A DNA stretch of 64,000 bases from Jiangella ureilytica (GTDB lineage Bacteria > Actinomycetota > Actinomycetes > Jiangellales > Jiangellaceae). The stretch is from positions 1 to 64,000 of the forward strand of contig NZ_SMKL01000010.1 of NCBI RefSeq assembly GCF_004348545.1, read 5' to 3'. The translations under genes and the position numbers were made by a program. The notes under the pieces were generated by a model. That model worked only from the letters and a program-made list of their open reading frames with translations, did not search any database and had not been told where the DNA came from. Positions 17,929 to 64,000 of the stretch are shown here, piece after piece (the first letter of the stretch is position 1; the number at the start of each line of letters is the position of its first letter).

Positions 17929-19482
17929 GTGCGTCGCGTCATGAAGCTCGTGGTTTCAGCGCTCCTCGTGGGCGTGGTCACCGCCTGCAATGCCGGCGGC
18001 ACGTCGCCGGCGGGCGGGGAGGACGGGCCGTTCACGCTCGTCTGGGGCAAGGAGACCGATCCGGCCGGCATCAACCCGCTCAAAGCCGGCGACATCCACG
18101 CCTTCGAGATCTTCAGCCTGGTCTACGAACCGCTGACCCAGCCGTCGGAGGACCTCGACGTCGGTCCGGGGCTGGCGGAGACATGGGAGGAGACGTCGCC
18201 CACGACGTGGCGGTTCACGCTGCGCGACGACGTCGCGTTCTCCAACGGGCGCGAGCTCACCTCGGCCGACGTCGTCGGGACCTGGGCGGCGCTGAAGGAG
18301 CTCGACGTGCGCACTGGGTCGTTCCCGAACGTCGACACGATGACGGCCGTCGACCCGCTCACCTTCGACGTCCAGCTCACCGCGCCGATGCCGGACCTGC
18401 CCTCCCGCATGGAGCTGTTCTGGGTGCTGCCGGCCGAGGAGCTGGCCGCCGGGACGTTCAACCCGGACGAGGACCTGCTGGGCACCGGCCCGTTCGTCGC
18501 AGGCGAGCACGTGTCCGGGGTGTCGTGGACCTTCGAGGCGAACCCGCACTACTGGCGGGACGACCTGCGCCAGGTCGACCGGGTGGAGATCAAGTTCATC
18601 CCGGACGACGCCTCCCGCCTGGCCGCGCTGCGCACCGGAGAGATCGACTTCACCATGTCGTCGAACCCCGACGTGCGGACCATCCTGGAGGGCGACCCGG
18701 CCCTCGAGGTGACCGTGCAGGAGACGACCGACCTCTACTACCTCTCGCTGAACTCCACGTGGACCGGCTCGCCGTTCCTGGACCAGCGGGTCCGGCAGGC
18801 GGTCGCGCTGGCCATCGACCGGCAGCAGATCATCGACACCGCGCTCGGCGGCATCGGCGAGCTCACCGCCATCACGCCGCGGGCGTTCGCCGACGCCTGC
18901 GACCCGGCCGGCGTTCTGGGTGCCGAGGGCCGCGACGTGGACGGGGCGAAGGCGCTGCTGGCCGACGCCGGTGTGGACGAGCTCGACTTCCGGCTCACGG
19001 TGGTGCCCGCGTTCGGCGCTCTGCGCGGCCCGCAGATCGCCCAGGTGATCCAGCAGAACCTCCAGGAGATCGGCCTCCAGGCGGAGGTCGGCGTGCTGGA
19101 CGGCGGGGCGTGGCTCGAGGAGACGTTCACCAACGGCACCTTCGACGCCACGCTGAACTGGTTCACCGGCGGCGGCTCCACATCGCACCTGCTCTCCTAC
19201 ATGGACCCCGAGCGCGCACCGATCCTGGCGCACCTGGTCGGCGACGACCCTGCCACGATCGGGCTGGTCCGCGAGGCTCTGGCGCTGCCGCCCGGCGAGG
19301 AGCGCGCCGCGGCCGTCGCCGCCGCCTGCGAGAACCTCAACGAGCAGGCGTTCTTCATCCCGCTGGCCACCAAGCCGACGGTGATCGTCCACCGCACCGA
19401 CCGCGTCGAGCCGGTCCTCAACCCGATCGAGCCGGTGCAGATGACCTTCCGCCGGCTGGCCGAGTTCGGCCGGGCGTCGTGA
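17929..19482 (+). CDS. Peptide ABC transporter solute-binding lipoprotein (family 5), first of seven
   Basis: 517 residues from GTG 17929, which has AGGGAGG six bases ahead; ATG 17941 is the alternative. A short signal peptide ends in a lipobox with Cys near residue 16 (VVTACNAGG), so the protein is membrane-anchored outside the cell. The SBP_bac_5 fold is clear (FTLRDDVAFSNGRELTSADV, GTGPFV, QAVALAIDRQQI). It binds peptides or similar compounds and passes them to the permeases encoded next. It differs from the six other lipoproteins here in lacking their CSDG and IVCA cysteines. This is the only one in an operon with permeases and ATPases. Confidence 0.93.
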   Translation: MRRVMKLVVSALLVGVVTACNAGGTSPAGGEDGPFTLVWGKETDPAGINPLKAGDIHAFEIFSLVYEPLTQPSEDLDVGPGLAETWEETSPTTWRFTLRDDVAFSNGRELTSADVVGTWAALKELDVRTGSFPNVDTMTAVDPLTFDVQLTAPMPDLPSRMELFWVLPAEELAAGTFNPDEDLLGTGPFVAGEHVSGVSWTFEANPHYWRDDLRQVDRVEIKFIPDDASRLAALRTGEIDFTMSSNPDVRTILEGDPALEVTVQETTDLYYLSLNSTWTGSPFLDQRVRQAVALAIDRQQIIDTALGGIGELTAITPRAFADACDPAGVLGAEGRDVDGAKALLADAGVDELDFRLTVVPAFGALRGPQIAQVIQQNLQEIGLQAEVGVLDGGAWLEETFTNGTFDATLNWFTGGGSTSHLLSYMDPERAPILAHLVGDDPATIGLVREALALPPGEERAAAVAAACENLNEQAFFIPLATKPTVIVHRTDRVEPVLNPIEPVQMTFRRLAEFGRAS

Positions 19483-20450
19483 GCGGCGGCCTCGGGCACG
19501 CCGGCCTGGTGCTGGCCCGGGCGGTCGCGACGATGCTGGCCGTCACCGTCCTCGTCTTCTTCGCTCTGCACGCGGTGCCGGGCGGGTTCGAGTCGGTGTA
19601 CCTGGGCACGAGCGCCAGTGAGACCAGCCACGCCACGGTGCGCGCGGCGCTGGGCCTGGACCGGCCGCTGCTGGAGCAGTACGTGAGCTGGGTGGGCGGG
19701 ATCGTCACCGGCGACCTCGGCACGTCGCTGCTCAGCTCGCGGCCGATCGTCGACGAGCTGGCGGTGCGGCTGCCCGCCACCGCCCAGCTGGCCGTCCTGG
19801 CCACGGTCATCTCGGTCCCGGCCGGCGCGGCGCTGGGGATCGCGGCCGGGGTCGCGAACCTGCGCGGGCGAGCGAGCGGGCTGGGCCGGGTGGCCGGCGC
19901 GCTGTCGGCCAGCGTGCCCGACTTCGTGGTCGCGACGGTCCTGGTGTTCGTGGCGTCGCAGGCCGGCTGGCGCATCGTCGGCTCGTCGTACGTCCCGTTC
20001 GCCGAGGACCCGGTCGGCAGCACCGTCCGGATGCTGCTGCCGGCGCTCTCGCTGAGCTTCTTCGCCACCGGCATCGTCGCCCGCACCACCCGCGACGCCG
20101 TGCTGGCCGTCCGCGCGGAGCCGTTCATGACGATGGCGATCGCGCGGGGCGAGTCGACCTGGCAGATCGTGCGCCGGCACGTGCTCCGCAACGTCGCCAA
20201 CCCGATCGTCACCGTCGGCGCCGTGAACGTCGGCTACCTCCTCGGAGGAGCGTTGATCATCGAGCGCGTCTTCGCCATCCCCGGCGTGGGGGAGTACGCC
20301 GTCAACGCCGTCAACTCGCGGGACTACCCGGTCGTGATGGCGACGGTGGTCCTCGGCGCGGCTGCGTTCGTCGTCGCGAACGTGCTCGCCGATCTCGCCG
20401 GCGGGTTCGTCGACCCGCGGCTCGGCGCCCGGCGGAGGGCGGCCCGATGA
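19479..20450 (+). CDS. Peptide ABC transporter permease, DppB/OppB type
   Basis: 323 residues starting at GTG 19479, overlapping the stop of the binding-protein gene (GTGA). About six membrane segments are seen. The first helix and the extracytoplasmic loop with GTSASETSHATVRAALGLDRP are typical of DppB. The cytoplasmic EAA loop reads ARGESTWQIVRRHVLRNVAN, with the conserved G near its centre, and docks onto the ATPases. It forms the channel with the following permease. Confidence 0.95.
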   Translation: MSGGLGHAGLVLARAVATMLAVTVLVFFALHAVPGGFESVYLGTSASETSHATVRAALGLDRPLLEQYVSWVGGIVTGDLGTSLLSSRPIVDELAVRLPATAQLAVLATVISVPAGAALGIAAGVANLRGRASGLGRVAGALSASVPDFVVATVLVFVASQAGWRIVGSSYVPFAEDPVGSTVRMLLPALSLSFFATGIVARTTRDAVLAVRAEPFMTMAIARGESTWQIVRRHVLRNVANPIVTVGAVNVGYLLGGALIIERVFAIPGVGEYAVNAVNSRDYPVVMATVVLGAAAFVVANVLADLAGGFVDPRLGARRRAAR

Positions 20451-25381: not shown

Positions 25382-27355
25382 TCACCGAGCCCGCAGGTGC
25401 CGCTCGAACCAGCTGAGCATGCGGGCGGCGAGGTCGACGCGGGCCGGCAGGCGGCGCACGCCGTGGCCCTCCTCGGGGTAGACGACGAGTTCGGTCTCGA
25501 CGCCGTGGTCGCGCAGGGCGGTGTGGAACTCCGCGGCCTGGGTGGGCGGGGTGCAGCGGTCGCGGGCTCCGGCGACCAGCAACGTCGGCGTGCGGACGGC
25601 GCGGGCGTGCCTGACGGGGCTGCGCTCGTGGTAGCGGCCGCCGGCGGCGTAGGGGTCGTCGTCGAGGAAGAGGGCGTCGAAGTGGCCGATGTTAGACGTG
25701 AGGTGCTGGCTGTACCAGTTCGTCACCGGGGCGACGGCGACGGCGGCGGCGAACCGGCGGTCCTGGGTGACCAGCCAGCACGACATGAAGCCGCCGTAGC
25801 TGCCACCGGTGACACCCAGCCGGGCCGGGTCGGCGATGCCGCGTGCCACCAGGTCGTCGACACCGGACAGGATGTCGTGGGTGTCGGCGCCGCCCATGTC
25901 GCCGTAGACGGCGCCGGCGAACTCCTGGCCGCGTCCGGACGACCCGCGCGGGTTCGGGTGCAGGACGGCGAAGCCGCGGCTGACGAGTAGCGGGGTGTAG
26001 TCGTAGCCCATGCGCCAGCGGTTGCGGTACGCCCACACCGGACCGCCGTGCACCAGCACGACCAGCGGGAACGGGCCGTCGCCGGCAGGACGGCACAGCA
26101 CGCCCTCGATCTCCAGCCCGTCCGGGGCGGTCCACCTCACCGCCGCCGCGGTCCCGGCCACCGACGCCAGCCACTCCGCACCCGGATCAGTCAGCGCGGC
26201 CAGCTCGGCCGGGGCGCCGCCGGGCGCGACGAGCGTGACGGCGGGCGGCCGGTCATAGCGCTCGAGCAGGAGCGCCGCCGTGCCGTCGGGCGCGAACGCG
26301 GCCTCGGGGTAGCGCGCGCCGGAGGACGCGTCGGTGGCGAGCAGCTCGGTGCGGGCCCCGGTCTCGGTGTCGTAGACGCCTGCGACGGTGTCCATCCCGC
26401 GCACGCCCACGTAGCCCAGGCGCCGGTCGTCGAGCCACTGCAGCCCGGTGACGTCGACGCCGCCGGTGTCGGCCGCCACGACCGCTCCGGACGCCGGGTC
26501 GACCAGCCTCAGGTCGCCGGCGACGATCCACCGGTCGCTGGACAGCGCCTCGACGACCGCGATGCGGCGCCCGCCCGGCGAGCCGGCCGGCCAGCCGAGC
26601 TGGGACTGCGGCTTGTACACGACCTCGGCGCCGCCGCCGGTCACGTCCACCGCCACAAGGGCGGCGGTGTACCAGGCGCCCTCGCCGGGGTCGCCCTCGG
26701 ACGCGACGGCGACGATGCTGTCCGGGCCCAGCCAGGCCGCCTCCCAGACGTTCAGCCCGTGCGGCGACACCCGCCGCACCGTCGCTCCCGCGACGTCGTA
26801 GACCCAGGCGCTGCGCCAGGCCGACTCCTCGCCGCCGTCAACGGTGGGCAGCCAGCCCGGGCCGTCGTCGGACCGCACGGAGTGCGTCCCGGAGCCCTGG
26901 CCGCCGGCGAGGTCGGCGCCCAGACCCGCGACGCCCAGCAGGATCCGACCGCCGTCGGGCGACCAGGCGCAGTACTCCACCGTGCCGTCGGGTCGCGGCG
27001 CCGAGACGGCCTCGCCCAGCCCGTCCCGCAGCAGGTACAGGCCGAACACGCCCTCGTCGGCCCGGTCGGACAGAAACGCGATCGTGTTCCCGTCCGGCGA
27101 CCAGCGGGGGCAGCGGTCATTGCCGGGGCCGCCGGTCAGCACGCGCAGGCCGTCGCCGTCCGCCACCGCGACCCTGGTCGACCCCAGGCCCTCCAACTTC
27201 TCCAGGACGGTGCCGGTGACGGCGACGGCGCGGCCATCGGGCCGCAGCGAGGGCTCCGCTACGCCGGTCACGCGGCCGAACCCGGGCTCCAGCCAGCGCC
27301 GGAAGAACTCCTCGACGTTGCGGTAGGTGTCGCCGTCGCGGATGTCGCGGTCCAT
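25382..27355 (-). CDS. S9 family prolyl-oligopeptidase-like peptidase (first copy)
   Basis: 657 residues from ATG 27355, with GGAG five bases ahead; a GTG at 27361 overlaps the upstream stop. A beta-propeller (about 40-400) shows WSPDGNTIAFLSD and WSPDGGRI blades of the TolB/WD40-like type, and the C-terminal alpha/beta domain has Ser519 in GGSYGG, Asp in GARDRCTPP and His in EEGHGV. No signal peptide is present. S9 enzymes cut short peptides, often after Pro or at the N-terminus. It is the last gene of a three-gene operon (lipoprotein, amidohydrolase, S9). Confidence 0.92.
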   Translation of the reverse strand: MDRDIRDGDTYRNVEEFFRRWLEPGFGRVTGVAEPSLRPDGRAVAVTGTVLEKLEGLGSTRVAVADGDGLRVLTGGPGNDRCPRWSPDGNTIAFLSDRADEGVFGLYLLRDGLGEAVSAPRPDGTVEYCAWSPDGGRILLGVAGLGADLAGGQGSGTHSVRSDDGPGWLPTVDGGEESAWRSAWVYDVAGATVRRVSPHGLNVWEAAWLGPDSIVAVASEGDPGEGAWYTAALVAVDVTGGGAEVVYKPQSQLGWPAGSPGGRRIAVVEALSSDRWIVAGDLRLVDPASGAVVAADTGGVDVTGLQWLDDRRLGYVGVRGMDTVAGVYDTETGARTELLATDASSGARYPEAAFAPDGTAALLLERYDRPPAVTLVAPGGAPAELAALTDPGAEWLASVAGTAAAVRWTAPDGLEIEGVLCRPAGDGPFPLVVLVHGGPVWAYRNRWRMGYDYTPLLVSRGFAVLHPNPRGSSGRGQEFAGAVYGDMGGADTHDILSGVDDLVARGIADPARLGVTGGSYGGFMSCWLVTQDRRFAAAVAVAPVTNWYSQHLTSNIGHFDALFLDDDPYAAGGRYHERSPVRHARAVRTPTLLVAGARDRCTPPTQAAEFHTALRDHGVETELVVYPEEGHGVRRLPARVDLAARMLSWFERHLRAR

Positions 27356-27357
27356 GG

Positions 27358-28695
27358 TCACTCCGGTGCCGAGATGATCGGACGGACGGGCAGAGCGTCG
27401 CGGTCGACGACGACGCCGTCCTTCATGACGTCCACGATGCGGCGGTAGTTCCGCACGTCGTCGAGCGGGTCCCCGTCGAGGATGAGCAGGTCGGCCCGCT
27501 TGCCGGGTTCCAGGGTGCCCAGCTCGTCGCCGACGTGGTACGCCTCCGCGGTGTAGCGGGTGGCGGACAGCAGCGCCTCCATCGGCGCCATCCCGAGCTC
27601 GGTCACCGCCTCGAGCCAGTAGAAGTGACCTTCGCCGAAGTGCTGCGAGTGGTCGACGACGCCACGCAGCCGGGCCAGCGCCGGATGCCTGCGCAGCCGG
27701 GGCCCCATCAGCGCGCCGTCGACGGTGAGCAGCAGGCGGGCGCCCGCGTCGATCAGCCGGCGGTCGTTGCCGGCGGCGGCCGGGCTGAGGCCGACCGTCC
27801 GCCACCACTCGGGGCCGTGCTCCTGGACCCAGGCCCGGTACCGCTTCGTCGGCACGATCGCGGCGATCGGCAGGCCGCGGCCGGCAATGGCCGCGACGAG
27901 GTCGTCGGGCATCGGCTCCTTGCCGGTGATGTTGCCGTGTTGGAGCAGGTCGGCACCCGCCTCGATCTCCATCCGCAGGCTCTCGACGGTGATGGTGTGG
28001 GCCTGGACGGTGATGCCGGCCCGGTGCCCCTCCTCGACGATCGCCCGCTGCGCCGTCTCGGAGAACAACAGCACCGGGGTCGTGTGTCCGCAGGCGCCGT
28101 ACTTGATGAAGTCGACGTCCGAGCGCTCGATGTACTCCCGGACCCGCCGGCGGATGCCGTCGGCGGTCAGCCACATCAGGTCCTGGCCGACGCCCTGCTC
28201 CCATTCCCGGTTGACCCGGTCGACGATCTCCGGCCCGAGGAAGTCGCCCGGCGACTGGAAGTCGGAGGAGAACGGCCCGCCGAAGCCGATGATGTTGCCG
28301 GCGACGAACATCCGGCTGCCGACGATCTCGCCGCGGTTGATCCGGTCGCGCACGGCGGTCAGCGGCCGGAGCGGACCCCAGGTGTCGAACACCGTGGTGA
28401 TGCCGGCCTTCAGCGCGACCTGCGCCGCCTCCTCGACGACCTGGTCGTAGCGGCCCTCGTGCTCGAGGATGACGTCCGGGAACGCGGAGAACAGGTGCGC
28501 GTTCGCGTCCATCAGGCCGGGGACGACGTGCCGCCCGGTGGCGTCGATCATCGTCGCCGAGCCGGGGAGCACCGTCTCGCGGGCCGGTGTCACCGACACG
28601 ATCCGCTCGCCGTCGATCAGCACGACGGCGTCGCGCAGCGGCGGGCGCCCGGTGCCGTCGACGACGGTGGCGCCGGCGATGGCCGTGAGTGTCAT
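27358..28695 (-). CDS. Amidohydrolase / metal-dependent dipeptidase-like (first of three paralogues)
   Basis: 445 residues; ATG 28695 has AGGAGGG ahead. A typical amidohydrolase with N-terminal beta domain, the TIM barrel and a GTLEPGKRADLLILDGDPL ending. Carboxylated-lysine candidate Lys198 (DFIKY), His in VQAHT, His in LLQHGN and Asp in LLTVDG are all in place. The first metal motif, normally HxH, is Asn65-x-His67 in MDANAHL. The closest functional group known to me is the Xaa-Pro/Xaa-Arg dipeptidase-like branch; other amide substrates are possible. It sits between its lipoprotein and S9 neighbours. Confidence 0.9.
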   Translation of the reverse strand: MTLTAIAGATVVDGTGRPPLRDAVVLIDGERIVSVTPARETVLPGSATMIDATGRHVVPGLMDANAHLFSAFPDVILEHEGRYDQVVEEAAQVALKAGITTVFDTWGPLRPLTAVRDRINRGEIVGSRMFVAGNIIGFGGPFSSDFQSPGDFLGPEIVDRVNREWEQGVGQDLMWLTADGIRRRVREYIERSDVDFIKYGACGHTTPVLLFSETAQRAIVEEGHRAGITVQAHTITVESLRMEIEAGADLLQHGNITGKEPMPDDLVAAIAGRGLPIAAIVPTKRYRAWVQEHGPEWWRTVGLSPAAAGNDRRLIDAGARLLLTVDGALMGPRLRRHPALARLRGVVDHSQHFGEGHFYWLEAVTELGMAPMEALLSATRYTAEAYHVGDELGTLEPGKRADLLILDGDPLDDVRNYRRIVDVMKDGVVVDRDALPVRPIISAPE

Positions 28696-28718
28696 GAGAG
28701 CCCTCCTGTCGTTCGCCG

Positions 28719-30326: not shown

Positions 30327-30391
30327 GGCGATCCTCCTTCAGCAGCGTGGCTGGCCCCTGACTGTAGGGACGGCGACGGCGCCCGGATATG

Positions 30392-30407
30392 CTCTGCGGC
30401 CGCAAAG
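30392..30407. promoter_or_regulatory. Palindrome in the promoter region of the second lipoprotein operon
   Basis: CTCTGCGGCCGCAAAG pairs in 14 of 16 positions with itself, with a perfect 10-bp core TGCGGCCGCA. It lies 66 bases upstream of the lipoprotein start in the 132-base intergenic region, where an operator would be expected. No matching copy was noticed elsewhere in the window. Confidence 0.3.
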
Positions 30408-30458
30408 ACGGCGGCCCGATTCGCGCGATCCGCGAACCGGTGGGCCGGGTCCGGCGGC

Positions 30459-31493: not shown

Positions 31494-31512
31494 CGTGGGG
31501 TGGTCCTCCAGG

Positions 31513-33957: not shown

Positions 33958-34656
33958 TCAACGCGCATGGGGATCGTGCATGTCCTGGTCGGCCGCAGCC
34001 TCCTGGCCGGCCCGGAACGCCTCGAGAGACACATCGGGAGCGCTCCGGGACTGGTCGAGCATGAGCGCGAGGCCGTCCGCGAGCGACTCGGTCAGGTCGA
34101 GGTCGAGGTCGTAGGTCGCGGTGGCGGCGATGCCGTTGATCAGGCACTGGGTCAGCGTCACCATGCGCTCCAGCGGGAGGGGCGGGACGGGCCGGCCGGC
34201 CATGCTGGCCACCAGGACGTCGCGCACGATGTCGCGAGCCTCGTCGTTGAGCTCGACCAGCCGCGGTCCGAGGGAGTCGTCGCGCATGGCCTCGGCGACG
34301 AACTCGTAGCCGGCGATCGTCCACGCCTTCTCCGGCTGCAGCTCGGCCCAGACGATCTCGGCGACCGTGGTGACCGGAAGCCTGTCGTGGACGCCGCGCA
34401 GTGCCGCCTCGAGCCGCCGCCCGCGGGCCAGCATGCGCCGCTCGGTGACCGCCAGGAACAGCTGCGCCTTGCTGGCGAAGTTCGAGTAGAGGGCACCGAT
34501 GGTGTAGCCGGCCTCTGCCGCGATCTCGTTGATGGAGGCGCCGCGGTAGCCCTTCGCGACGAACACCTCTTCCGCGGCGACCAGCACGTTCTCGCGGGTG
34601 ACCGACCGGACGCGCTTCGGGGCGGCGCCGGTGCCGCGTTGGGTCCGGGTGCTCAT
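33958..34656 (-). CDS. TetR family regulator next to the PucR gene
   Basis: 232 residues. HTH at about 20-70, with ASINEIAAEAGYTIGALYSN and FASKAQLFLAVTERR, very like the other TetR at 36567. The C-terminal domain is of the common TetR_C type. It is divergent from the PucR gene over a 12-bp inverted repeat at 34700-34728 that covers candidate promoters in both directions, so it likely represses itself and pucR. The ligand is unknown. Confidence 0.9.
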   Translation of the reverse strand: MSTRTQRGTGAAPKRVRSVTRENVLVAAEEVFVAKGYRGASINEIAAEAGYTIGALYSNFASKAQLFLAVTERRMLARGRRLEAALRGVHDRLPVTTVAEIVWAELQPEKAWTIAGYEFVAEAMRDDSLGPRLVELNDEARDIVRDVLVASMAGRPVPPLPLERMVTLTQCLINGIAATATYDLDLDLTESLADGLALMLDQSRSAPDVSLEAFRAGQEAAADQDMHDPHAR

Positions 34657-34674
34657 CCGCTCCGCGCCTCCTCG

Positions 34675-34753: not shown

Positions 34754-34777
34754 GCTCGAGTGGGAGGTGATCCCGCC

Positions 34778-36551: not shown

Positions 36552-36566
36552 GAACGGCGGGCACCG

Positions 36567-48272: not shown

Positions 48273-48287
48273 CGTTCTCGTCCTCTC

Positions 48288-49709: not shown

Positions 49710-49731
49710 GGGCGTGCCTTCCTCTCTCAGA

Positions 49732-52490: not shown

Positions 52491-52517
52491 GAGAGGTCTC
52501 CTCACTCATCGGGGCGC

Positions 52518-54035: not shown

Positions 54036-54058
54036 TCGGAGCCCTCGCCTCCCCGCCG

Positions 54059-55027
54059 TCAGCGCCAGACCTGGCCGAAGACGCGCAGCCAGTTCTCGCC
54101 GAGGATGCCGCGCACGTCGTCGGCGCCGAACCCACGCTCGAACAGCCGCTCGGTGAGGCGCGGCAGGCCGGAGGCGTCCTCGAGCTCGGCGGGGTAGTGC
54201 CAGGGCGGCGGCGGGTAGCTCTCCCGTGACCACACGCCGTCGCGGATCAGCTGCTCGTAGACGTCCAGCGGCGGGTTCGGCGTCGTGTAGTCCAGGCCGA
54301 TCCCGACGTGCTCGGTGCCGACCAGGTCGGCGAGGTAGGCGATGTGGTCGATGTAGTCGTCGAGCGTGGGCTTGGCCGACGACACGACGAACGCGCCGTA
54401 GCCGTTGGCCCCGATGACGCCGCCGCCGGCCGCGAGGGCCCGGATGAGGTCGTCGGTCAGGTTGCGCCGGCTGTGGTGCACGGCGGCACAGTTCGAGTGC
54501 GACGCGATGACGGGCGCGGTGGAGGCCTCGACGGCGTCCAGGCTGGTCCGCAGGCCGGTGTGCGAGACGTCGACGATCATCCCGAGACGGTTCAGTTCGC
54601 CGACGACCTGGCGCCCGAACCGGCTGAGCCCGGCGTCGTTCGGCTCCTCGCACCCGTCGCCGACGGGGCTGCGGACGTTGTAGGTCAGCTGGACCACGCG
54701 CACGCCAAGCCGCCAGTACACCTCGACCAGGCCGGCGTCGTACTCGACCGGCTGCGTCCCCTGGAAGTGCAGGACCACGGCGAGCTTTCCGTCGCGCTTG
54801 GCGGCGCGGATGTCGTCGGCCGTGGTGGCGAGGACGAGGTCGTCGCGCTCGCGGAGGAACCGGTACGTGTCGCCCAGCAGGCCGACGGTGTCGCGGCAGC
54901 TCTCCCACGCGGCGACGCTGACGACGCAGGCGGTGGCGCCGCCGGCGATCCAGCTCGGGTACTGCTCACGCCACCACAGGGCCGGGCACGTGCCGTCGAT
55001 CACGATCGCGTCGGAGTGCAGGGTCAT
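54059..55027 (-). CDS. M19 dipeptidase-like protein with lost zinc ligands (third M19)
   Basis: 322 residues from ATG 55027 (GGGAG six bases ahead; GTG 55030 adjacent). M19 barrel with VDVSHTG, IASHSNC, HVGIGLDYT and GILGENWLRV. The HxD motif is replaced: DGTCP (residues 11-15) instead of DTHND, and the bridging Glu is Gln in LHFQGTQ. The changes parallel those in the second M19 copy (Thr for His, Gln for Glu), so this is a shared lineage and not random decay. First gene of the seven-gene operon behind the GntR operator at 55061. Confidence 0.87.
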   Translation of the reverse strand: MTLHSDAIVIDGTCPALWWREQYPSWIAGGATACVVSVAAWESCRDTVGLLGDTYRFLRERDDLVLATTADDIRAAKRDGKLAVVLHFQGTQPVEYDAGLVEVYWRLGVRVVQLTYNVRSPVGDGCEEPNDAGLSRFGRQVVGELNRLGMIVDVSHTGLRTSLDAVEASTAPVIASHSNCAAVHHSRRNLTDDLIRALAAGGGVIGANGYGAFVVSSAKPTLDDYIDHIAYLADLVGTEHVGIGLDYTTPNPPLDVYEQLIRDGVWSRESYPPPPWHYPAELEDASGLPRLTERLFERGFGADDVRGILGENWLRVFGQVWR

Positions 55028-55060
55028 CACTCGCTCCCGTTCGATCCGCCTGGTTGAACA

Positions 55061-55077
55061 TTAGGTGTAATACCTTA
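55061..55077. promoter_or_regulatory. GntR operator, copy A, over the M19/gntR divergent promoter
   Basis: TTAGGTGTAATACCTTA is a near-palindrome (AGGT-n5-ACCT). Its complement differs from copy B at 57282-57298 in only one of 17 bases. On the minus strand TTGACA (complement of 55087-55092) lies 17 bases ahead of TACACC, so the operator covers the -10 area of the operon promoter. This fits repression by the adjacent GntR protein. Confidence 0.75.
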
Positions 55078-55125: not shown

Positions 55126-55827
55126 GTGAGTGAAGCGGTGACGGGTCTGGGTCAGGAGCTGGGCGGAGCCAAGCTGACGGCGTCGAGCCTGCGCGACCAG
55201 GCGCTGCGGGTGATCCGGGCACGGATCATCTCCGGCGAGCTGGCGCCGGGACGGCTGTATGCCCTCGGCGCGGTGGCGGAGCAGCTGGGCGTCTCGGTGA
55301 CGCCGGTGCGCGAGGCCGTCCTCGACCTCGCCCGCGAGGGCCTCGTCGAGCTGGCCCGCAACCGCGGCTTCCGGGTCCGCGAGATGACCGACGGCGACCT
55401 CGACGAGATCGTGGAGCTGCGGCGGATGATCGAGGTCTCAGCCGTGCGCACCATCGCCGAGCGCGGCCTGCTCGCCGACGCCGAGGCGGACCGCCTCCGC
55501 GAGATCGCCGCCGCCACCGAGAAGTGCGCCGCCGACGGCGACTGGGTCGGCTTCCTCGACAACGACCGCGACCTGCACATGGGCCTGCTCGCGCACCTCG
55601 GCAACGAGCGGCTGCTCACCATCGTCGGCTCATTGCGCGACCAGGGCCGGCTCTACGGCCTCGACCACGTCGCCGGCTCGGCCAGCCTCATGGAGTCCAC
55701 CCATGAGCACGACACCCTCATCGACGCCGTTGCCGCGGGGGAGGCCGACCTGGCAGCGGCCATCATGGATCGCCACCTGCGGCACACTCGCGGCATCTGG
55801 GCCGGTCACGCCGAACACTCCGGCTGA
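55126..55827 (+). CDS. GntR family regulator (FCD-type) of the D-peptide gene group
   Basis: 233 residues from GTG 55126; no clear Shine-Dalgarno, so possibly a leaderless or short-leader mRNA. The winged HTH (about 20-90) shows LRDQALRVIRARIISGELAP and VAEQLGVSVTPVREAVLDLA. The FCD domain has its usual metal-site pattern, with Asp in DNDRDLHMGLLAHL, and His in STHEHDTLI. It is divergent from the M19-S12 operon. The 17-bp operator occurs here and again at 57282, giving a clear local regulon. The ligand may be a D-amino acid or dipeptide, which is inference. Confidence 0.9.
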   Translation: MSEAVTGLGQELGGAKLTASSLRDQALRVIRARIISGELAPGRLYALGAVAEQLGVSVTPVREAVLDLAREGLVELARNRGFRVREMTDGDLDEIVELRRMIEVSAVRTIAERGLLADAEADRLREIAAATEKCAADGDWVGFLDNDRDLHMGLLAHLGNERLLTIVGSLRDQGRLYGLDHVAGSASLMESTHEHDTLIDAVAAGEADLAAAIMDRHLRHTRGIWAGHAEHSG

Positions 55828-57281: not shown

Positions 57282-57298
57282 TAAGGTATTATACCTAA
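57282..57298. promoter_or_regulatory. GntR operator, copy B, between oxidoreductase and cyclodeaminase genes
   Basis: TAAGGTATTATACCTAA has a perfect AGGTAT-T-ATACCT palindromic core. It contains TATAAT on the minus strand and TATTAT on the plus strand, so it lies exactly over the -10 boxes of both divergent genes. It matches copy A at 16 of 17 bases. Confidence 0.78.
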
Positions 57299-57313: not shown

Positions 57314-58309
57314 ATGACAGCGGACGTGATGGTCCTCTCGGCCGCCGACGTCGCGGCGTTGTTCGACCCGGAGACCGCCGTCGAGTCGCAGCGGGCGGCG
57401 TTCGAGGCGCTGGGGAAGGGCACGGCGGTGCAGCCGGACAAGCTGATGCTGCCGGCCGCGGACGACGGCGCCGTGGCGTTCTGCTACGCCGCCCGCCTGT
57501 CGACGGCGGACCCAGCGGTGTCCAAGTTCGGCAGCGTCACCCCGGCCAACGCGGCCGCGGGCCTGCCGACCATCGCCGCCCTCGTGGTCGTCCTCGACGC
57601 CGTCACCGGGCAGCCGGCCGCGGTCATGGACGGCACCGTCATCACCACGCGCCGCACCGCCGCCGCCAGCGCCGTGGCGATCGACGCGTTGGCCCGGGCC
57701 GACGCCGCCGAACTGGCCGTTGTGGGCTGCGGCGTCCAGGGCCACGAGCACGTCCGCATGCTGGCCCGGATCCGGCCGTTCCGGGCGGTCCGGCTGTGGG
57801 GACGGTCGGAGCGACGCCGCACCGCCGCGGCCCGCGATCTGGCCGCGGAGACCGGGCTGCCGGTTCGCGCGAGCGCCACCGCGCGCGAGGCGGTCGCCGG
57901 CGCGGACATCGTCGTGCTGTGCACGCTGAGCACGGAACCGCTGGTGGAACGGGGCTGGCTGGCGCCGGGCGCCACCGTCGTCTCGCTCGGGTCCATCGCG
58001 CCCGGCCGCTGCGAGGTCGGCCCGGACGTCGTCGCGGCCGCGCGCGTCGTGGTCGACGACCCGGCGACGGCGGCCGCGCACGCTGGCCCGATCGTGGCCG
58101 GGCTGCACGCCGGCACGCTCCTCCGTGACCAGCTGGTCGGCCTGGGTGACGTGCTCGTCGGCACCACGCCTGGCCGCACCGCGCCGGACGAGCTGGTCTT
58201 CTACAACAGCACCGGGCTCGGTGTGCAGGACGCCGCCGCGGCGGCCGCCGTCCTCGAGCGCGCCCGCCGCGCCGGTCTCGGCCACCGTCTGCCGCTCACC
58301 GGGTCGTGA
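57314..58309 (+). CDS. Ornithine cyclodeaminase / mu-crystallin family protein
   Basis: 331 residues; ATG 57314 has GAGGAG five bases ahead (GTG 57311 too close). The family shows Lys in PDKLMLP, the TTRRTAAASA anion-binding arginine segment, the NAD motif VVGCGVQGHEHV and YNSTGLGVQD near the end. Members include ornithine cyclodeaminase, L-alanine dehydrogenase and ketimine or pyrroline-carboxylate reductases. Beside a DadA-like enzyme, a reductase or dehydrogenase converting the imino/keto product back to an L-amino acid would fit, but the reaction is not readable. Its end overlaps the convergent amidohydrolase stop by 14 bases. Confidence 0.9.
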   Translation: MTADVMVLSAADVAALFDPETAVESQRAAFEALGKGTAVQPDKLMLPAADDGAVAFCYAARLSTADPAVSKFGSVTPANAAAGLPTIAALVVVLDAVTGQPAAVMDGTVITTRRTAAASAVAIDALARADAAELAVVGCGVQGHEHVRMLARIRPFRAVRLWGRSERRRTAAARDLAAETGLPVRASATAREAVAGADIVVLCTLSTEPLVERGWLAPGATVVSLGSIAPGRCEVGPDVVAAARVVVDDPATAAAHAGPIVAGLHAGTLLRDQLVGLGDVLVGTTPGRTAPDELVFYNSTGLGVQDAAAAAAVLERARRAGLGHRLPLTGS

Positions 58310-59630
58310 TGACGGGGCGCAGCGGGAGGGCGTCGCGGTCGACGACGGCGCCGTCTTTGATCACGTCGACGATGCGGGTGTAGTTCTGCACGTCGGCCAG
58401 CGGGTCGGCCTCGAGGATCACCAGGTCGGCACGCTTGCCCGGTTCGAGGGTGCCGACCTCGTCGGCGACGTGGTAGGCCTCGGCGATGTAGCGGGTGGCC
58501 GACAACAGCGCCTCCATCGGCGCCATGCCGCGCTCGAGCGCGCCCTGCAGCCAGAGGATGTGCGACTCGCCCAGCCGCGTCGGAGTGTCGGCCATGTCGC
58601 GGAACGGCGCGAAGGCCGGATGCCGCACGAGACGTGGCCCCCAGACGAACGCGTCGGTGGTGAGCAGCAGCCGGGCCCCGGCCTCGACGAGCCGCCGGTC
58701 GTTGCCGTCCATGTGCGCGTTGTACAGCCGGCGCATCATCGGGCTGCCGTGCTCGGCGACCCAGGCATGGTGGCGCTCAGTGAACAGCATCGCGGCGACT
58801 GGAAGCCCCCGGTCGACGATGGCCTTCAGCGTCTCCTCCGGCATCGGCTCCAAGCCGGTGATGTCGCCGTGCTGGAGCAGGTCGGCGCCGGCCTCGATCT
58901 CCATCCGCAGGCTCTCCACGGTCGTCGTGTGCGCCTGGACGGTGATGCCGGCCCGGTGCCCCTCCTCGACGATCGCCCGCTGTGCGGCCGCGGAGAAGGT
59001 GATGAACGCGGTCGCGTGCCCGCTGGCCGCGTACTTGAGGAAGTCCGGCCGGTGCCGGTCGACGTAGTCGCGGACCCGCGACCGCACCTGCTCCGGGGTG
59101 CGCCACAGCAGGTCGGCGCCGACACCGTGCTCCCACTGCCCGTTGATGCGCTCGACGGTGTCCGGCCCGAAGCCGTCGCCGGGTGAGAAGAAGTCCGGCG
59201 ACAGCGGCCCGCCGAAGCCGATGATGTTGCCGCCGACGTACATCCGGCTGCCGGCCGTGTCGCCGCGGTCGATCGCGTCACGGACGGCTTGCAGCGGACC
59301 CAGCGGGCCCCAGGTGTCGAAGACGGTGGTGATCCCGGCCCGCAGCGTGACCTGCGCCGCCTCCTCGACGAACGCGGCGTAGCCGCCCTCGTGCTCGATC
59401 AGGACGTCGGGCAGGGGGGCGCCGAACAGGTGGACGTTGGCGTCCATCAGCCCGGGGATCACGTACCGCCCGGCCGCGTCGATCACCTCGGCCTGCGCGG
59501 GCACGACGGTGTCCGCCGCCCGCGACACCGACCGGACGCGGTCGCCGTCGATGAGCACGACGGCGCCGGGCAGCGGCGCGCGCCCGGTGCCGTCGAGCAC
59601 GGTCGCGCCCGTGATCGCTCGCAGCATCAT
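58296..59630 (-). CDS. Amidohydrolase / metal-dependent dipeptidase-like (third paralogue)
   Basis: 444 residues; ATG 59630 (or 59627) follows GGAGGTGAG at the end of the S15 gene. Asn65-x-His67 in MDANVHL, Lys199 in DFLKY, His in VQAHT, His in LLQHGD and Asp in LLTTDA match the other two copies. The end of the gene is almost identical in DNA to the second copy (see repeat). Last gene of the operon that enters from the right edge. Confidence 0.9.
   Translation of the reverse strand: MMLRAITGATVLDGTGRAPLPGAVVLIDGDRVRSVSRAADTVVPAQAEVIDAAGRYVIPGLMDANVHLFGAPLPDVLIEHEGGYAAFVEEAAQVTLRAGITTVFDTWGPLGPLQAVRDAIDRGDTAGSRMYVGGNIIGFGGPLSPDFFSPGDGFGPDTVERINGQWEHGVGADLLWRTPEQVRSRVRDYVDRHRPDFLKYAASGHATAFITFSAAAQRAIVEEGHRAGITVQAHTTTVESLRMEIEAGADLLQHGDITGLEPMPEETLKAIVDRGLPVAAMLFTERHHAWVAEHGSPMMRRLYNAHMDGNDRRLVEAGARLLLTTDAFVWGPRLVRHPAFAPFRDMADTPTRLGESHILWLQGALERGMAPMEALLSATRYIAEAYHVADEVGTLEPGKRADLVILEADPLADVQNYTRIVDVIKDGAVVDRDALPLRPVITTR
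58311..58547 (-). repeat. Inverted repeat arm shared with 41904-42140
   Basis: Complement of this 237-base segment equals 41904-42140 except one base (a synonymous AAA/AAG lysine codon). Flanks differ at once on both sides. It lies 16 kb away in opposite orientation. Confidence 0.85.
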
Positions 59631-59634
59631 GGGC

Positions 59635-61479
59635 CTACTCACCTCCGGGCAGCACGGACAGGACGAGGCGGGACGGGCGCGCCGGATCGTGGTACACGGC
59701 CTGGTCGGCGCGGACCGGCGGGCCCGGTTCGCCGCCGCGGTTGGTGTTGCGGTCGAAGCGGGGGAAGTCCGACGACGTGACGTCGAGGCGGATGCGGTGC
59801 CCGGCGCGGAACCGGTTCGCCGTGGCCCACAGGTCGACGTCCAGCCGGTACACCCGGCCCGGCTCGAGCAGCGCGACCGCACCGCCGGGGTCGCGGAACC
59901 GGGTCCGCAGCGTGGCGCTCTGCAGCTGGATCGCCCGGCCGTCAGGGAACACGTCGCTCAGCCGTGCGCTGAAGTCCGTGTCCACCGCGCTGGACGACGC
60001 GTACAGGACCAGCCGGAGCGGCCCGGCCACGTCGAGGTCGCGCTCCAGCGGCTCGGTCGTGTACGTCAGCACGTCCGGGCGGGCCTGCACCTGCGCGACG
60101 TCGACACTGCCCGGTAGGTACACCGACGACACGAGACTGCCGCCCACCGTCGGGGTCGGGTCGGCTGGGTCGTACGTGTAGCGGTCCGGCGCCGACGGCG
60201 AGCCCGGCGGCCGGGTCGTCAGCACCCCGCCCGCGCCCAGGTACAGCTCCCGGACGGCCGCCTCGGGCGGCGGCCACGCCGGAGCGCTGCGCCACTCGTT
60301 GGCGCCCATCAGGTAGTAGACGACGGCCGGCCAGTCGTCCAGGCGGTCCTCGCGCACGGCCGTGTACCAGTGGTCGAGCAGGTCCAGGATCTGAGCGGTC
60401 CGGTAGACGCGGTCCAACTCCGGGTGATCGTCGCGACCCTCGTGGTAGCCGGGCTGATTGTGCGCCGCCGGGGTGATCAGCAGCCGGCTGCGAGACCGGA
60501 CCGGCTGCGGCGCCAGCCTGGTCAGCCGTTCCCAGGTGGCCAGCGTGTAGTCCAGGCCCCAGTCGTACCAGCCGGTGATGTTCAGCGCCGGCGTGCGCAG
60601 CGACGCGTACAGCTCGCCGTCGACGGCGCGGGGGAACAGGTAGCCGTCGCCGACCCGGTGCGGGAAGAGCCCCGACCAGCGACCGAGGTCCTGGTAGGTG
60701 ACGCGGTCGCCGCCGAGCGCCGTGGTGACCAGCGACGCCCGGCCGGCCGGGTCCGCCGTCCGGTAGCGCTCCCACAGCCACTCCTGCGCCGCGTCGGCCG
60801 GCAGCGTCCGCAGCTGCGGGTACCGGTCCAGCAGCGGCGCGGAGAACGGCGCGTCCATGGGCTCGTTGAACCACCCGCCAGCCAGCGTCTCCGCCCGCAT
60901 CCGCCGTTCGGTCTCCTCGTAGCCGAGCGCGAGCTGGTCCGCGCCCTTGCCGACCGAGCGCGAGTACGAGTTGACGAACAGGTAGCTGTTCGGCCCGCGG
61001 CCCGGGCGGCCGACGCCGAAGCCGGCCACCTCCGGCGCGAGGGCGGACATGGCCGGGTGCAGCGCCATGCACCACTGCATCCAGCCGGCGTAGGAGCCGC
61101 CGAGCGCGCCGACGAACCCGCTGTACCAGTCCTGCCGGGTGATCCAGTCGACCAGGTCGACGCTGTCCTCGCGCTCGTGGACCATGAAGTCCCAATGGTC
61201 CGGCTCGCTGTCCCCAGTGCCGCGGCAGTCCTGGGCCACCACGACGTAGCCGCGGCGGGCCAGCACGAGCAGACACTCGCCCAGCTGGTCCCGGCCGTAC
61301 GGGGTGCGGAGCGCGACGGCGGGCGCGGGCGTCGTGGGCGGCAGGTACACGTCGGTCGCCAGCAGGGTTCCGTCACGCACCGCCATCCGGACCGTCTCGC
61401 GACGGATCGCATCGGCATCGAACCGGGGTTCCGGCGTCCCGCTCGCCGTCGCCGCGAGCAGCCGCTCGAGCGTCCTCAC
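59635..61479 (-). CDS. S15 family peptidase / CocE-NonD hydrolase (second copy)
   Basis: 614 residues from GTG 61479, overlapping the lipoprotein stop (GTGA). TPYGRDQ, QDCRGTGDSE, the nucleophile Ser129 in LGGSYAG, Asp in GWYDWGLDYT and His in TPAAHNQPG are present, and the PepX_C domain ends with GHRIRLDVTSSDFPRFDRNTN. Clearly related to the first copy at 31513. Between a lipoprotein pair and the third amidohydrolase in a compact operon. No signal peptide. Confidence 0.92.
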   Translation of the reverse strand: MRTLERLLAATASGTPEPRFDADAIRRETVRMAVRDGTLLATDVYLPPTTPAPAVALRTPYGRDQLGECLLVLARRGYVVVAQDCRGTGDSEPDHWDFMVHEREDSVDLVDWITRQDWYSGFVGALGGSYAGWMQWCMALHPAMSALAPEVAGFGVGRPGRGPNSYLFVNSYSRSVGKGADQLALGYEETERRMRAETLAGGWFNEPMDAPFSAPLLDRYPQLRTLPADAAQEWLWERYRTADPAGRASLVTTALGGDRVTYQDLGRWSGLFPHRVGDGYLFPRAVDGELYASLRTPALNITGWYDWGLDYTLATWERLTRLAPQPVRSRSRLLITPAAHNQPGYHEGRDDHPELDRVYRTAQILDLLDHWYTAVREDRLDDWPAVVYYLMGANEWRSAPAWPPPEAAVRELYLGAGGVLTTRPPGSPSAPDRYTYDPADPTPTVGGSLVSSVYLPGSVDVAQVQARPDVLTYTTEPLERDLDVAGPLRLVLYASSSAVDTDFSARLSDVFPDGRAIQLQSATLRTRFRDPGGAVALLEPGRVYRLDVDLWATANRFRAGHRIRLDVTSSDFPRFDRNTNRGGEPGPPVRADQAVYHDPARPSRLVLSVLPGGE

Positions 61480-63083
61480 CGCAGCACCCGCATGCTCGTC
61501 GGGACGGGGAAGTTCGTGCTGCTGGTGCGCGCCTCGGCGTGCTGGAGGTAGAAGGGCCACGGCCGGTTCGAGATCGGCACCAGGTCCAGGTTGCGGAACA
61601 GCGCCTGCTCGGCCCGGCCCCAGTACTCGCAGGCCTCCGGCGGCGTCAGGGCCTGGGCCTGCGCGACCAGCTCCTCGTACTCGGCGTTGTGGAGGCCGGA
61701 CAGGTTGGTCCCGTCCGGCGGGACCGGCCCGGACAGGTACGGCACGGCCTGGTGCGGCAACCCGAAGCCGAACCCGCCGAGGTAGACGTCGTAGTCGCTG
61801 GTCTCGAACATGAACTGGTTCATCGTCGTGAAGGTGTCGGAGGTGAGCTCGACCCGGATGCCGAGCTCCTCCCACTTCTGCGCGACGAGTTCGGCGGCCG
61901 GCTGGTAGTCGGGCGTGATGGACGGGACGAAGTGCAGGTCGATCGTCAGCGGCACGCCGTCCTTGGCGCGGAGGCCGTCGGCGCCCGCGGCCCAGCCCGC
62001 CTCGTCGAGCAGCGCCTCGGACGCCGCGACGTCGAACCCGGGCAGCTGGCCGCTGACGGTGTCGCCCGGGCAGGCCTTGGGCTCGGCCGTGATCAGCCCG
62101 TCCGACAGGCTGCCCGTCTCTCCCGTCGACACCGCGACGAGCTCCTCGAAGTCCAGCGACTGGACCAGTGCCTGGCGCACCTTCTTGTCCTGGGTGACCC
62201 GCCCGTCCACCTGGTTGAACCACAGCCAGGCTCCGGACGACGGCACGACCACCTTGTCCAGGCCCTGGGCGTCCAGGCGCTGCCAGTCGCGTCCGGTGAT
62301 CAGGGCGAAGTTGATCTCGCCGGACAGCAGCAGGTTGGCCCGCGTCGACTCGTTCGTGACGATGCGCAGCACCACCTGCTTCGGCATTCCGGGCTGGTCG
62401 GTGCCGGCGCCGTCGGGCCCCCACGCGTAGTCGTCGCGGCGGGTGAACGTGTACGTCTGCCCGGGCACGACGTCGGTGAGCACGAACGGCCCGGTGCCGT
62501 CGGACTCGGTCCTCAGCAAGTCCGGGTCGGCCAGGCCGCGGGCGCACACGATCGGCAACTGCCCGACGGTGTGCAGCAGGAAGCCGAACGGCTCGGCGAC
62601 GGTCACCTCCACCGTGCGGGCCGCGTCGTCGCCGGTGGCCGTCAGCGAGACGGTCGGCGTGTAGACGCCGTACTGCGGCGACTGGTTGGCCGGGTCGCTC
62701 ACGAACGTGATCGCCGCCGCGACGTCGCTCGCGGTCAGTGGCGCGCCGTCGGAGCAGGTGACGTCCTCGCGCAGGGTGAACGTCGCGCCGTTGGCGTCGG
62801 CCGTCCACGTCTCGGCCAGCCCGGACACGAACTCGCCGTCCGGGGCGAGGTTGAGCAGCGAGTCGTAGGCCAGGTAGGCCTCGCCGAAGATCAGCTGGCT
62901 GTGGTAGGGGTCGAACGTGCCGGGATCGTCACGCAGCCCGATCGTGAACGTGGCGTCGATGGCGTAGCTCGCCGACCCGCCGGTGCTGCCGGTGTCGTCG
63001 TCCGACGTCGCGCCGCAGGCGGTGGCCAGGCAGGCGGCCGCGAAGGCGACGAGCAGGACGGCGGGCGTACGTGTCGCGGTCAT
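61476..63083 (-). CDS. Orphan peptide-binding lipoprotein (family 5), sixth
   Basis: 535 residues from ATG 63083 (ATGA overlap with the seventh). Lipobox at LATACGAT. Shares EDVTCSDG, SDPANQSPQYG, LPIVCARGL, DDYAWGPDGAGT, NLLLSGEINF, ACPGDTVSGQLP and ACEYWGRAE with its relatives. About 70 percent similar by eye to the seventh over the C-terminal third, pointing to tandem duplication. Confidence 0.93.
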   Translation of the reverse strand: MTATRTPAVLLVAFAAACLATACGATSDDDTGSTGGSASYAIDATFTIGLRDDPGTFDPYHSQLIFGEAYLAYDSLLNLAPDGEFVSGLAETWTADANGATFTLREDVTCSDGAPLTASDVAAAITFVSDPANQSPQYGVYTPTVSLTATGDDAARTVEVTVAEPFGFLLHTVGQLPIVCARGLADPDLLRTESDGTGPFVLTDVVPGQTYTFTRRDDYAWGPDGAGTDQPGMPKQVVLRIVTNESTRANLLLSGEINFALITGRDWQRLDAQGLDKVVVPSSGAWLWFNQVDGRVTQDKKVRQALVQSLDFEELVAVSTGETGSLSDGLITAEPKACPGDTVSGQLPGFDVAASEALLDEAGWAAGADGLRAKDGVPLTIDLHFVPSITPDYQPAAELVAQKWEELGIRVELTSDTFTTMNQFMFETSDYDVYLGGFGFGLPHQAVPYLSGPVPPDGTNLSGLHNAEYEELVAQAQALTPPEACEYWGRAEQALFRNLDLVPISNRPWPFYLQHAEARTSSTNFPVPTSMRVLR

Positions 63084-64000
63084 GAGAACACCCGGATGCT
63101 GGTCGGGATGGGGAAGTTGAAGCCGGCGATCTCGGCGTCGGCGTGCTGCAGGAACCAGGTGTTGGGCCGATTGGCGATGGGAGCGATGTCGAGGTTGCGC
63201 CACAGCGCCTGCTCGGCCCGGTCCCAGTAGGTGCACGCTTCGGGCGGGGTCAGTGCCTGCGCCTGGACGACGAGCTCCTCGTACTCCTCGTTGTGGATGC
63301 CGGCCAGGTTGGTGCCGTCCGGCGGGACCGGGCCGGTGTTGTAGGAGATCGCCTGGCTGGGCAGGCTGTAGCCGAACCCCTGCATGTAGACGTCGAAGTC
63401 ACCGGTCTCGAACATGACTCGGTTCAGACCCGTTCCGTCGTCGCCGGTCAGCTCCACCTGAACGCCGATGGCCTGCCACTGCGCGGCGATCAGCTCGGCG
63501 GTCGGCTCGTTGTACACCGACCCGGGCCCGAAGTAGTGCAGGTTCAGGGTGAGCGTCCGGCCGTCCTTCTCCCGGACGCCGTCGGCGCCCGCCACCCAGC
63601 CGGCGTCGTCGAGCAGTTCCTCGGCGGCGGCGACGTCGTACTCGGGCAACTGGCCGCTGACGGTGTCGCCGGGGCAGACCTGTGGCTCGATCGTGACCAG
63701 GCCGGTCGACGTGGTGCCGCGGCCACTGCCGTTGACCTTGATGACCTCTTCCAGGTCGAGCGTATGGACGAGCGCCCGCCGGACCCGCAGGTCGTCGGTG
63801 GCGCGGCCGTCCCGCTGGTTGAACCACAGCCACGCGCCGGAACCAGGGGTGTCCAGCCGGGTCAGGCCTTGGGCGTCCAGCCGCTGACCGTCCGGCCCGC
63901 TGATCAGGGCGAAGTTCACCTCGCCGGACAGCAGCAGGTTCGCCATCGTCGTCTCGTTGAGGCCGATCCGGAGGACCACCCGGGCCGGCGTCCCGGGTGC
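63080..64000 (-). CDS. Orphan peptide-binding lipoprotein (family 5), seventh (5' end outside window)
   Basis: The frame runs off the right edge at 64000, so about the C-terminal 306 residues are seen; a GTG at 63979 is probably internal. Recognised by NLLLSGEVNFALISG, VCPGDTVSGQLPEYDVAAAE, GPVPPDGTNLAGIHN and ACTYWDRAE. It is the most upstream gene seen in the operon with the sixth lipoprotein, S15 peptidase and third amidohydrolase. Signal peptide and promoter lie beyond the window. Confidence 0.92.
   Translation of the reverse strand, partial: APGTPARVVLRIGLNETTMANLLLSGEVNFALISGPDGQRLDAQGLTRLDTPGSGAWLWFNQRDGRATDDLRVRRALVHTLDLEEVIKVNGSGRGTTSTGLVTIEPQVCPGDTVSGQLPEYDVAAAEELLDDAGWVAGADGVREKDGRTLTLNLHYFGPGSVYNEPTAELIAAQWQAIGVQVELTGDDGTGLNRVMFETGDFDVYMQGFGYSLPSQAISYNTGPVPPDGTNLAGIHNEEYEELVVQAQALTPPEACTYWDRAEQALWRNLDIAPIANRPNTWFLQHADAEIAGFNFPIPTSIRVFS

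Follow-up and report, generated by a model that had tools for sequence, protein, structure and literature searches.

The first 64,000 bases of a 113.5-kb contig (C11) from the 6.35-Mb genome of Jiangella ureilytica (labelled G000) form the window of this study. They contain part of an island of about 61.5 kb (15.6-77.1 kb of the contig; coordinates past 64000 continue the contig numbering) in which seven lipoproteins of the SBP_bac_5 family of substrate-binding proteins (SBPs) are interleaved with 21 hydrolases of nine families. We consider it probable that this is a two-importer catabolic island. One lipoprotein, SBP1, and the ATP-binding cassette (ABC) transporter T1 would constitute a self-contained importer, while six paralogous lipoproteins (SBPa to SBPf) most likely dock on one second core, T2, bringing it different but related ligands that the cytoplasmic hydrolases encoded beside each SBP would split. 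A regulator, GntRb, probably co-regulates T2, the SBPd operon and two genes for amino acid enzymes (DAO and OCD) through a 17-bp operator, and the island may have originated from a copy of an ordinary SBP-T2-type operon in which the SBP was amplified and further hydrolases were recruited. We infer the docking on T2, the identity of the regulator, the ligand class and the order of these events from gene content and its comparison across genomes.

Genes and their starts were taken from a simple caller and families were assigned by Pfam scans. For the region from 17929 to 64000, the original prediction had announced seven binding lipoproteins, one ABC transporter and about eighteen cytoplasmic hydrolases, and our gene calls confirm this census. 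We find seven SBP_bac_5 lipoproteins, one complete ABC transporter (T1) and 17 hydrolases (an alpha/beta hydrolase, an M24 enzyme, a DUF885 protein, two S9, two S15, three amidohydrolase, three M19 and four S12 enzymes), to which a C69-family enzyme just upstream (15634..16980, minus strand) adds an eighteenth. PF00496 was above its cut-off in all seven SBPs: SBP1 (17908-19482, plus), SBPa (28719-30311, minus), SBPb (37206-38729, plus), SBPc (42180-43781, plus), SBPd (50892-52490, minus), SBPe (61476-63083, minus) and SBPf (63080-64687, minus), the last of which runs past the window end at 64000. A lipobox pattern detected the lipoprotein signals except that of SBPf, whose signal ends AGSAGC. 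In a crude test, with S12f read from a late start, no hydrolase had a hydrophobic N-terminus resembling those of the SBPs (best 15-residue Kyte-Doolittle mean of at most 1.69, versus at least 2.05); the C69 enzyme and M19c fit a loose lipobox pattern, yet without the hydrophobic stretch. Calling the hydrolases cytoplasmic is therefore reasonable, and the gene content bears out the earlier view that operons here join SBPs to cytoplasmic hydrolases.

The clustering of these genes in about 1 % of the genome exceeds chance. The island holds 7 of the 28 SBP_bac_5 genes of the genome, 6 of its 17 S12 genes (four of them inside the window), 3 of its 4 M19 genes and all three molinate-hydrolase-type amidohydrolases found in it, so that the unusual density noted earlier was real. 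Of the 21 SBPs elsewhere in the genome, 19 have a permease no more than 1.6 kb away, by a distance test that used 46 of 150 scored permease matches, including all those listed for contig C44, where both remaining SBPs lie. Separately, C44 carries a further cluster at 45.3-78.6 kb (L145, L146) with three SBP_bac_5 genes and two transporters; its SBP at 77 kb has no permease among the matches listed within 17 kb.

Both transporters of the island are complete. T1 consists of two permeases and two ATPases (19479-20450, 20447-21292, 21289-22269 and 22266-23051, plus strand) in an operon opened by SBP1. T2 lies beyond the window at 67082-71079 (plus strand), 2.4 kb past SBPf, and comprises OppB (67082-68074, its start reset to 67082), an OppC-OppD fusion (68078-70081) and OppF (70078-71079); its operon has no SBP of its own. 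The nearest permease matches of the six orphan SBPs are 3-21 kb away. These SBPs are 22-29 % identical to SBP1, whose own relatives (38-39 % identical) adjoin T1-like permeases in three genomes (G017, G018, G019).

To identify the usual partner of the orphan family, we fetched 78 loci with relatives of SBPa-f and kept those with at least 37 % identity and more than 250 bits. Three loci of the Jiangella anatolica island and 30 loci below the cut (L074, L078, L082-L109) were left out, resulting in 46 SBP genes in 45 loci. A T2-type permease is found within three genes at 42 of the 45 loci (43 of 46 genes), while a T1-type permease is the best label within three genes for none of the 46. Searching 12 Jiangella genomes (G000 and eleven others) yielded 30 loci, consisting of the six island SBPs, ten distant SBPs and 14 relatives at 39-47 % identity. 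The OppB gene of the T2 type (T2B) lies directly downstream in 13 of these 14 relatives, which come from 10 other genomes. At the exception (L126) an S9 gene follows the SBP; where the same gene occurs in J. endophytica (L055), T2B comes later. Since the family usually pairs with a T2-type core and the T2 of the island lacks an SBP, T2 and not T1 is the likely shared core of SBPa-f, as judged by family and place.

A link between T2 and one of the orphan modules is also suggested by a regulatory candidate. A 17-bp near-palindrome, TARGGTATTAYACCYRA, emerged when 14 chosen intergenic stretches of the island were searched for common motifs. Chance predicts 0.03 sites in the window at up to three mismatches, and two are present, one of them reported on both strands; with up to two mismatches the whole genome has three sites, all in the island. 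Site 1 (55061..55077, minus) lies between the M19c-S12d-SBPd operon and gntRb (55126..55827, plus), which encodes an FCD-type regulator. Site 2 (57282..57298, plus) lies between the genes for DAO, a DAO-family oxidoreductase (55999-57246, minus), and OCD, an ornithine cyclodeaminase family protein (57311-58309, plus). Site 3 (66932-66948) is found beyond the window, about 130 bp before T2. In another Jiangella genome, G003, all three sites recur at the corresponding positions; a single site is present in each of G001, G004 and G011 (up to two mismatches) and none in the other seven Jiangella genomes at that threshold, giving nine matches in 12 genomes, eight of them exact. In G001, G004 and G011 (L205, L206, L207) a different SBP-permease-ATPase operon diverges from a gntRb relative (48-49 % identity), with the site in the gap between them; OCD-like and M19 genes come after the gntRb relative.

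The simplest reading is that TARGGTATTAYACCYRA is the operator of GntRb, which would place T2 under common control with one of the orphan-SBP modules and with amino acid enzymes. Some points weaken it. The motif came from stretches chosen by hand, the reversed motif used as a control gives three matches in the 12 genomes (none in G000, one in G003), and the candidate site is present at three promoters only, leaving modules a, b, c and e/f uncovered. These modules have TetR and PucR genes nearby: TetRa (minus), PucRa (plus) and TetRb (plus) at 33958..37148, and beyond the window TetRc (66194-66934, plus) and PucRb (73938-75578, plus). A search for operators common to all modules brought out nothing beyond the three GntRb-type sites; a 13-mer common to two stretches preceding pucR genes was dropped, and it may fall in coding sequence. 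We also observed a loose inverted repeat, GGTGATACAGTACACC, at 66129-66144 between the divergent S12e/SBPf/SBPe operon and tetRc, which is possibly the TetRc operator.

The island is shared with a second species. Among named organisms the best match is J. anatolica GTF31, in which a contig has much the same gene order (L032-L034). In our genus set, G003 keeps the 15.6-77.1 kb block, of which the C69 gene is the first, with its gene order almost unchanged and a DNA identity of 84-94 % (orthologous blocks mostly at 89-94 %, two at 84 and 87 %). Missing from the G003 block are DAO, AHc and S12a, and it contains an additional SBP and an additional S9 gene. The earlier suggestion to look for the same gene order in related genomes thus proved fruitful: SBPa-f all have intact G003 orthologs at 91-96 % identity, and SBPs above 650 bits occur in two of the 12 Jiangella genomes, six in G000 and seven in G003. 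Between 60 and 72 % of the differences in SBPa-f fall at third codon positions, and both transporters likewise have G003 orthologs with most differences at third positions, suggesting that the SBP copies have been kept by selection. Five of the island SBPs are 55-68 % identical to each other, SBPb is 37-41 % identical to the rest, and identity to SBPf ranges from 41 to 67 % for SBPa-e. A quick tree of 74 SBPs, in which long branches were flagged, groups five of the six orphans with the extra G003 copy in a single clade (97 % SH-aLRT); SBPb falls outside it on a long branch and its place was not used. Further paralogs are found among the amidohydrolases (65-78 % identical), the S15 enzymes (58 %), the PucR regulators (53 %) and S12a and S12f (56 %).

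The genes that flank the island in G000 have best G003 matches of only 50 % and 38 %, and G003 has other genes there, so that the island occupies different surroundings in the two genomes. No empty site was found. Third-position GC is higher in the island than in the contig flanks (medians 0.95 versus 0.88), yet it is equally high (0.97) in the region of contig C102 that carries an ordinary SBP-T2-type operon. In DNA identity most island blocks slightly exceed the C102 operon compared with its J. anatolica equivalent (86-87 %), yet the gene next to that operon reaches 94 %, a value that the island does not surpass. Taken together, these comparisons do not decide whether the island was acquired recently. 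A search of the open-licence literature on Jiangella, going by titles and abstract starts, found no paper devoted to the island.

In its ordinary form in actinobacteria, the operon consists of one SBP (two in L038), OppB, a fused OppCD and OppF. S12 relatives are found near 28 of 42 such loci and PucR near 13. At 15 of the 42 loci we found genes for all three of an M20 hydrolase, a GNAT protein and an enolase-family racemase, and at 20 for at least two of these, each family being assigned from a single representative; these counts are minima because the locus flanks end at 10 kb. The representative racemase exceeds the TIGR01928 cut-off. On C102 the operon has the racemase together with relatives of the GNAT and M20 genes, and this racemase matches the N-acylamino acid racemase of the solved structure 1sja with 549 bits over 366 residues. 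By coordinates compared by hand, 11 of the 12 Jiangella genomes have a gene above the TIGR01928 cut-off at a distance of 9-11 kb from the canonical SBP, G010 being the exception. N-succinylamino acid racemase, a GNAT acyltransferase and an M20 deacylase make up the Geobacillus-type pathway from D- to L-amino acids, and the racemase in the related operons hints at D- or N-acyl-amino-acid compounds.

Other genes were observed beside relatives of these SBPs. Downstream of the core, the ordinary operons at L140 (7239-10547, corresponding to C102 92238-95546), L036, L040, L044, L052, L056 and L067 encode a hydrolase of about 1100 residues; Pfam, scanned in L056 only, identifies it there as an S9-S12 fusion, while S9 and S12 are separate genes in the island. 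In Nonomuraea antri the ordinary operon adjoins a D-aminopeptidase gene (M55, DppA-like, truncated at the end of the contig; L065, 3-749, minus), and in Conexibacter arvalis the gene immediately after the SBP is of the M81 (MlrC) type (L075, 11476-12996).

The enzymes of the island give a second indication of what is imported. Among proteins of solved structure, the amidohydrolase of module c, AHb (40821-42170, plus), best matches molinate hydrolase and phenylurea hydrolase B with 314-315 bits, versus at most 99 bits for relatives of L-arginine carboxypeptidase or Xaa-Pro dipeptidase. Amidohydrolases of subtype VIII are zinc- or cobalt-dependent homotetramers that hydrolyse tertiary amides, ureas or thiocarbamates and are known mostly from the breakdown of pesticides and herbicides. 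When AHb is aligned to MolA, N65-x-H67, K199, H235, H255 and the Asp of LLLTTDA all match, and AHa (27358-28722, minus) and AHc (58296-59642, minus) have the same columns. This corresponds to the subtype VIII motif (Asn-x-His, Lys, His, His, Asp) given in PMC12753220, and the Asn-for-His change in such amidohydrolases is also described in PMC4407906. Scoring the best four candidates per genome in 393 genomes sampled from the class, we found subtype VIII enzymes at E of at most 1e-60 in three genomes, with five of the six genes located in the two copies of the island.

Among the other proteins, S15a (31513-33408, minus) is nearest to cocaine esterase. The solved relatives of S12b (46860-48272, minus) include alkaline D-peptidase, S12 peptidase and DD-carboxypeptidases, its two best solved matches being entries named IS11 and alpha/beta hydrolase; its second motif, YNN, is seen in the sequence and was missed by the pattern scan. 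The predicted model of SBPf (mean pLDDT 86.7) has a fold that matches SBP_bac_5 (cluster C) proteins. By both sequence and fold its closest solved relative is an SBP of Microbacterium hydrocarbonoxydans (PDB 6lu2, 6lu3, 6lu4), with a Z-score of 35.1, a root-mean-square deviation of 2.5 and 27 % identity over 459 residues, the next match having a Z-score of 33.6. The crystal ligands of that protein are propylparaben and a 4-hydroxybenzoate compound, listed with its name as far as 'hydr' and probably a hydrazide. An aspartate motif for binding the peptide N-terminus, GD..DP, is found in the C123 and C55 SBPs and absent from SBPa-f; it was not used as evidence because it is also absent from most other SBPs of the genome.

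Judged by these relatives, the ligands would be small amide-linked compounds, most likely D- or N-acyl-amino-acid compounds, with plain L-peptides or other amides possible. Some findings weaken the case for the D- or N-acyl class. The racemase, GNAT and M20 trio was not found among 44 island proteins scanned with Pfam, and most of the listed Jiangella genomes have a second TIGR01928 gene elsewhere. M19, S15 and OCD relatives are found near none of the 42 ordinary operons, with an amidohydrolase near two, DUF885 near two and DAO near one, so that the ordinary operon says little about those island enzymes. S9 is likewise near none at the 37 % cut, the S9 matches there being about 30 % identical and the S9-S12 fusions being labelled S12. 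As a speculation that we regard as rather doubtful, the island could be the native home of subtype VIII amidohydrolases, with the SBP of each module capturing one N-acylated, tertiary-amide or D-amino-acid class and all of them entering via T2; such compounds may be, for example, modified or non-ribosomal peptides.

The shared use of T2 has to be weighed against other arrangements. The original prediction assigned the role of single core to T1 (19479-23051), which is the only transporter inside the window and belongs to the same island. We find this very unlikely: T1 has a dedicated SBP in SBP1, whose relatives likewise lie beside T1-like permeases, the other six SBPs are 22-29 % identical to SBP1, no T1-type permease lies within three genes of any of their 46 relatives, and T2 begins 2.4 kb from SBPf. 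Several binding proteins per core remains a plausible part of that prediction, and the single transporter does not, as a second complete set sits at 67,082-71,079. The prediction had named separate permease and ATPase sets for each lipoprotein as its refutation, and this was borne out in part, by one further set just beyond 64 kb and not one per lipoprotein. Within the T2 family, three of the 45 loci (L035, L064, L081) count against the pairing, having no nearby T2 permease, although T2-type genes lie six and seven positions upstream in L035 and a T2F gene is the immediate neighbour in L081. Neighbourhood elsewhere is moreover an argument by family, of which SBPb is a distant member, and the other T2-type core of G000 could also serve the orphans. 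This core, on C102, belongs to the ordinary copy of the operon, which is complete and 62-69 % identical to that of the island. With shared cores described as accepting several SBPs (PMC4206461), it is conceivable that the orphans use T2, the C102 core and perhaps others with no fixed partner. We think this improbable, given that the C102 core has its own SBP and that the candidate operator was not found in the 19.5 kb searched there, while the T2 operon lacks an SBP gene and has this site in common with the SBPd module.

Two further alternatives concern function and not the core. The island may reflect plain gene amplification, with redundant SBP copies, overlapping ligands and no division of labour, as would be allowed by the paralogy (55-78 % identity) within the sets of five SBPs, of three amidohydrolases and of two S15 enzymes. 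This too seems unlikely to us, since both species keep every SBP copy intact and most of the differences between them are at third codon positions, the enzyme sets differ between modules, and the copies are old, the five SBPs having diverged far more from each other than their orthologs have between species. Alternatively, the substrates may be other amides, carbamates, ureas or esters, such as plant alkaloids or xenobiotics, making this a general amide and ester scavenging locus. The subtype VIII motif and the scores of AHb, the cocaine esterase relationship of S15a and the crystal ligands of the closest solved SBP all agree with this possibility, which we do not favour but take seriously; M24, M19, S9 and DUF885 are on the other hand mostly peptidase families, the solved relatives of S12b include a D-peptidase and DD-carboxypeptidases, and amino acid racemase genes occur in related operons. 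The peptides that the original prediction proposed as substrates are unproven, and the amidohydrolases, S15a and the closest solved SBP relative point at least partly to other amides or esters. We continue to favour the import of amide-linked compounds through SBPa-f and T2.

The remaining genes are arranged as follows. GntRa, an FCD-type regulator (17012..17830, minus), is divergent from SBP1 and T1, and T1 is followed by the alpha/beta hydrolase (23032-23871, plus) and the M24 aminopeptidase-P-like enzyme (23948-25369, plus). Module a (25382..33408, minus) consists of S15a, M19a (30459-31493), SBPa, AHa and S9a (25382-27361). ARAGORN predicts a 98-base tRNA-Ala antisense inside the S9a gene (25850-25947, plus), which is probably false because the window gave no match at the gathering score of any Rfam family. 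Module b (37206..40681, plus) pairs SBPb with S9b (38726-40681), and module c (40821..45486, plus) joins AHb and SBPc to the DUF885 enzyme (43783-45486). Module d (45490..55030, minus) contains M19c (54059-55030), S12d (52518-54035), SBPd, M19b (49732-50895), S12c (48288-49709), S12b and S12a (45490-46863). Module e (58296..63083, minus) contains SBPe, S15b (59635-61479) and AHc, and SBPf adjoins it. From 64.0 to 77.1 kb follow S12e (64705-66093, minus), TetRc, T2, S9c (71350-73545, minus), PucRb and S12f (75813-77066, plus); judging by G003, S9c and S12f probably start further upstream than called.

Compared with known systems, the use of several binding proteins by one core is an established principle. 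In Pseudomonas aeruginosa the DppBCDF core serves DppA1-DppA5, which are from 83 % down to about 50 % identical, and four of the five dppA genes lie near the core with a dipeptidase and a regulator; di- and tripeptide use was measured there, and DppA5 gave no complementation in the screen (PMC4206461). The island resembles this system in the proposed sharing of one core by several related SBPs and differs in the number and spread of the SBPs and the variety of linked enzymes. While the four Pseudomonas SBP genes lie just upstream of the core, the six SBPs of the island extend over 36 kb among its hydrolases, and the OppC-OppD fusion distinguishes its core from DppBCDF. With the ordinary actinobacterial operon the island shares the SBP family and the fused OppCD, and unlike that operon, which often continues with the M20, GNAT and N-succinylamino acid racemase genes, it lacks the trio. 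The SBP of M. hydrocarbonoxydans is distant from SBPf, and its small aromatic crystal ligands cannot be carried over.

Our analysis corrects the transporter assignment of the original prediction and results in a set of six paralogous SBPs with one core and one proposed regulator, in which the ligands of the SBPs would show how SBP duplication and enzyme recruitment evolve together. It also places three subtype VIII amidohydrolases in an apparent natural uptake context, and if this is true, the natural substrates of such enzymes could be read from their partner SBPs. The metal-site residues of the island enzymes are the same as those of molinate hydrolase MolA, the phenylurea hydrolases PuhA/PuhB and the piperine hydrolase PipM as described in PMC4407906 and PMC12753220. 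Unlike those enzymes, the ones described here are known from their genes and form three paralogs in one island, each in a module with an SBP gene.

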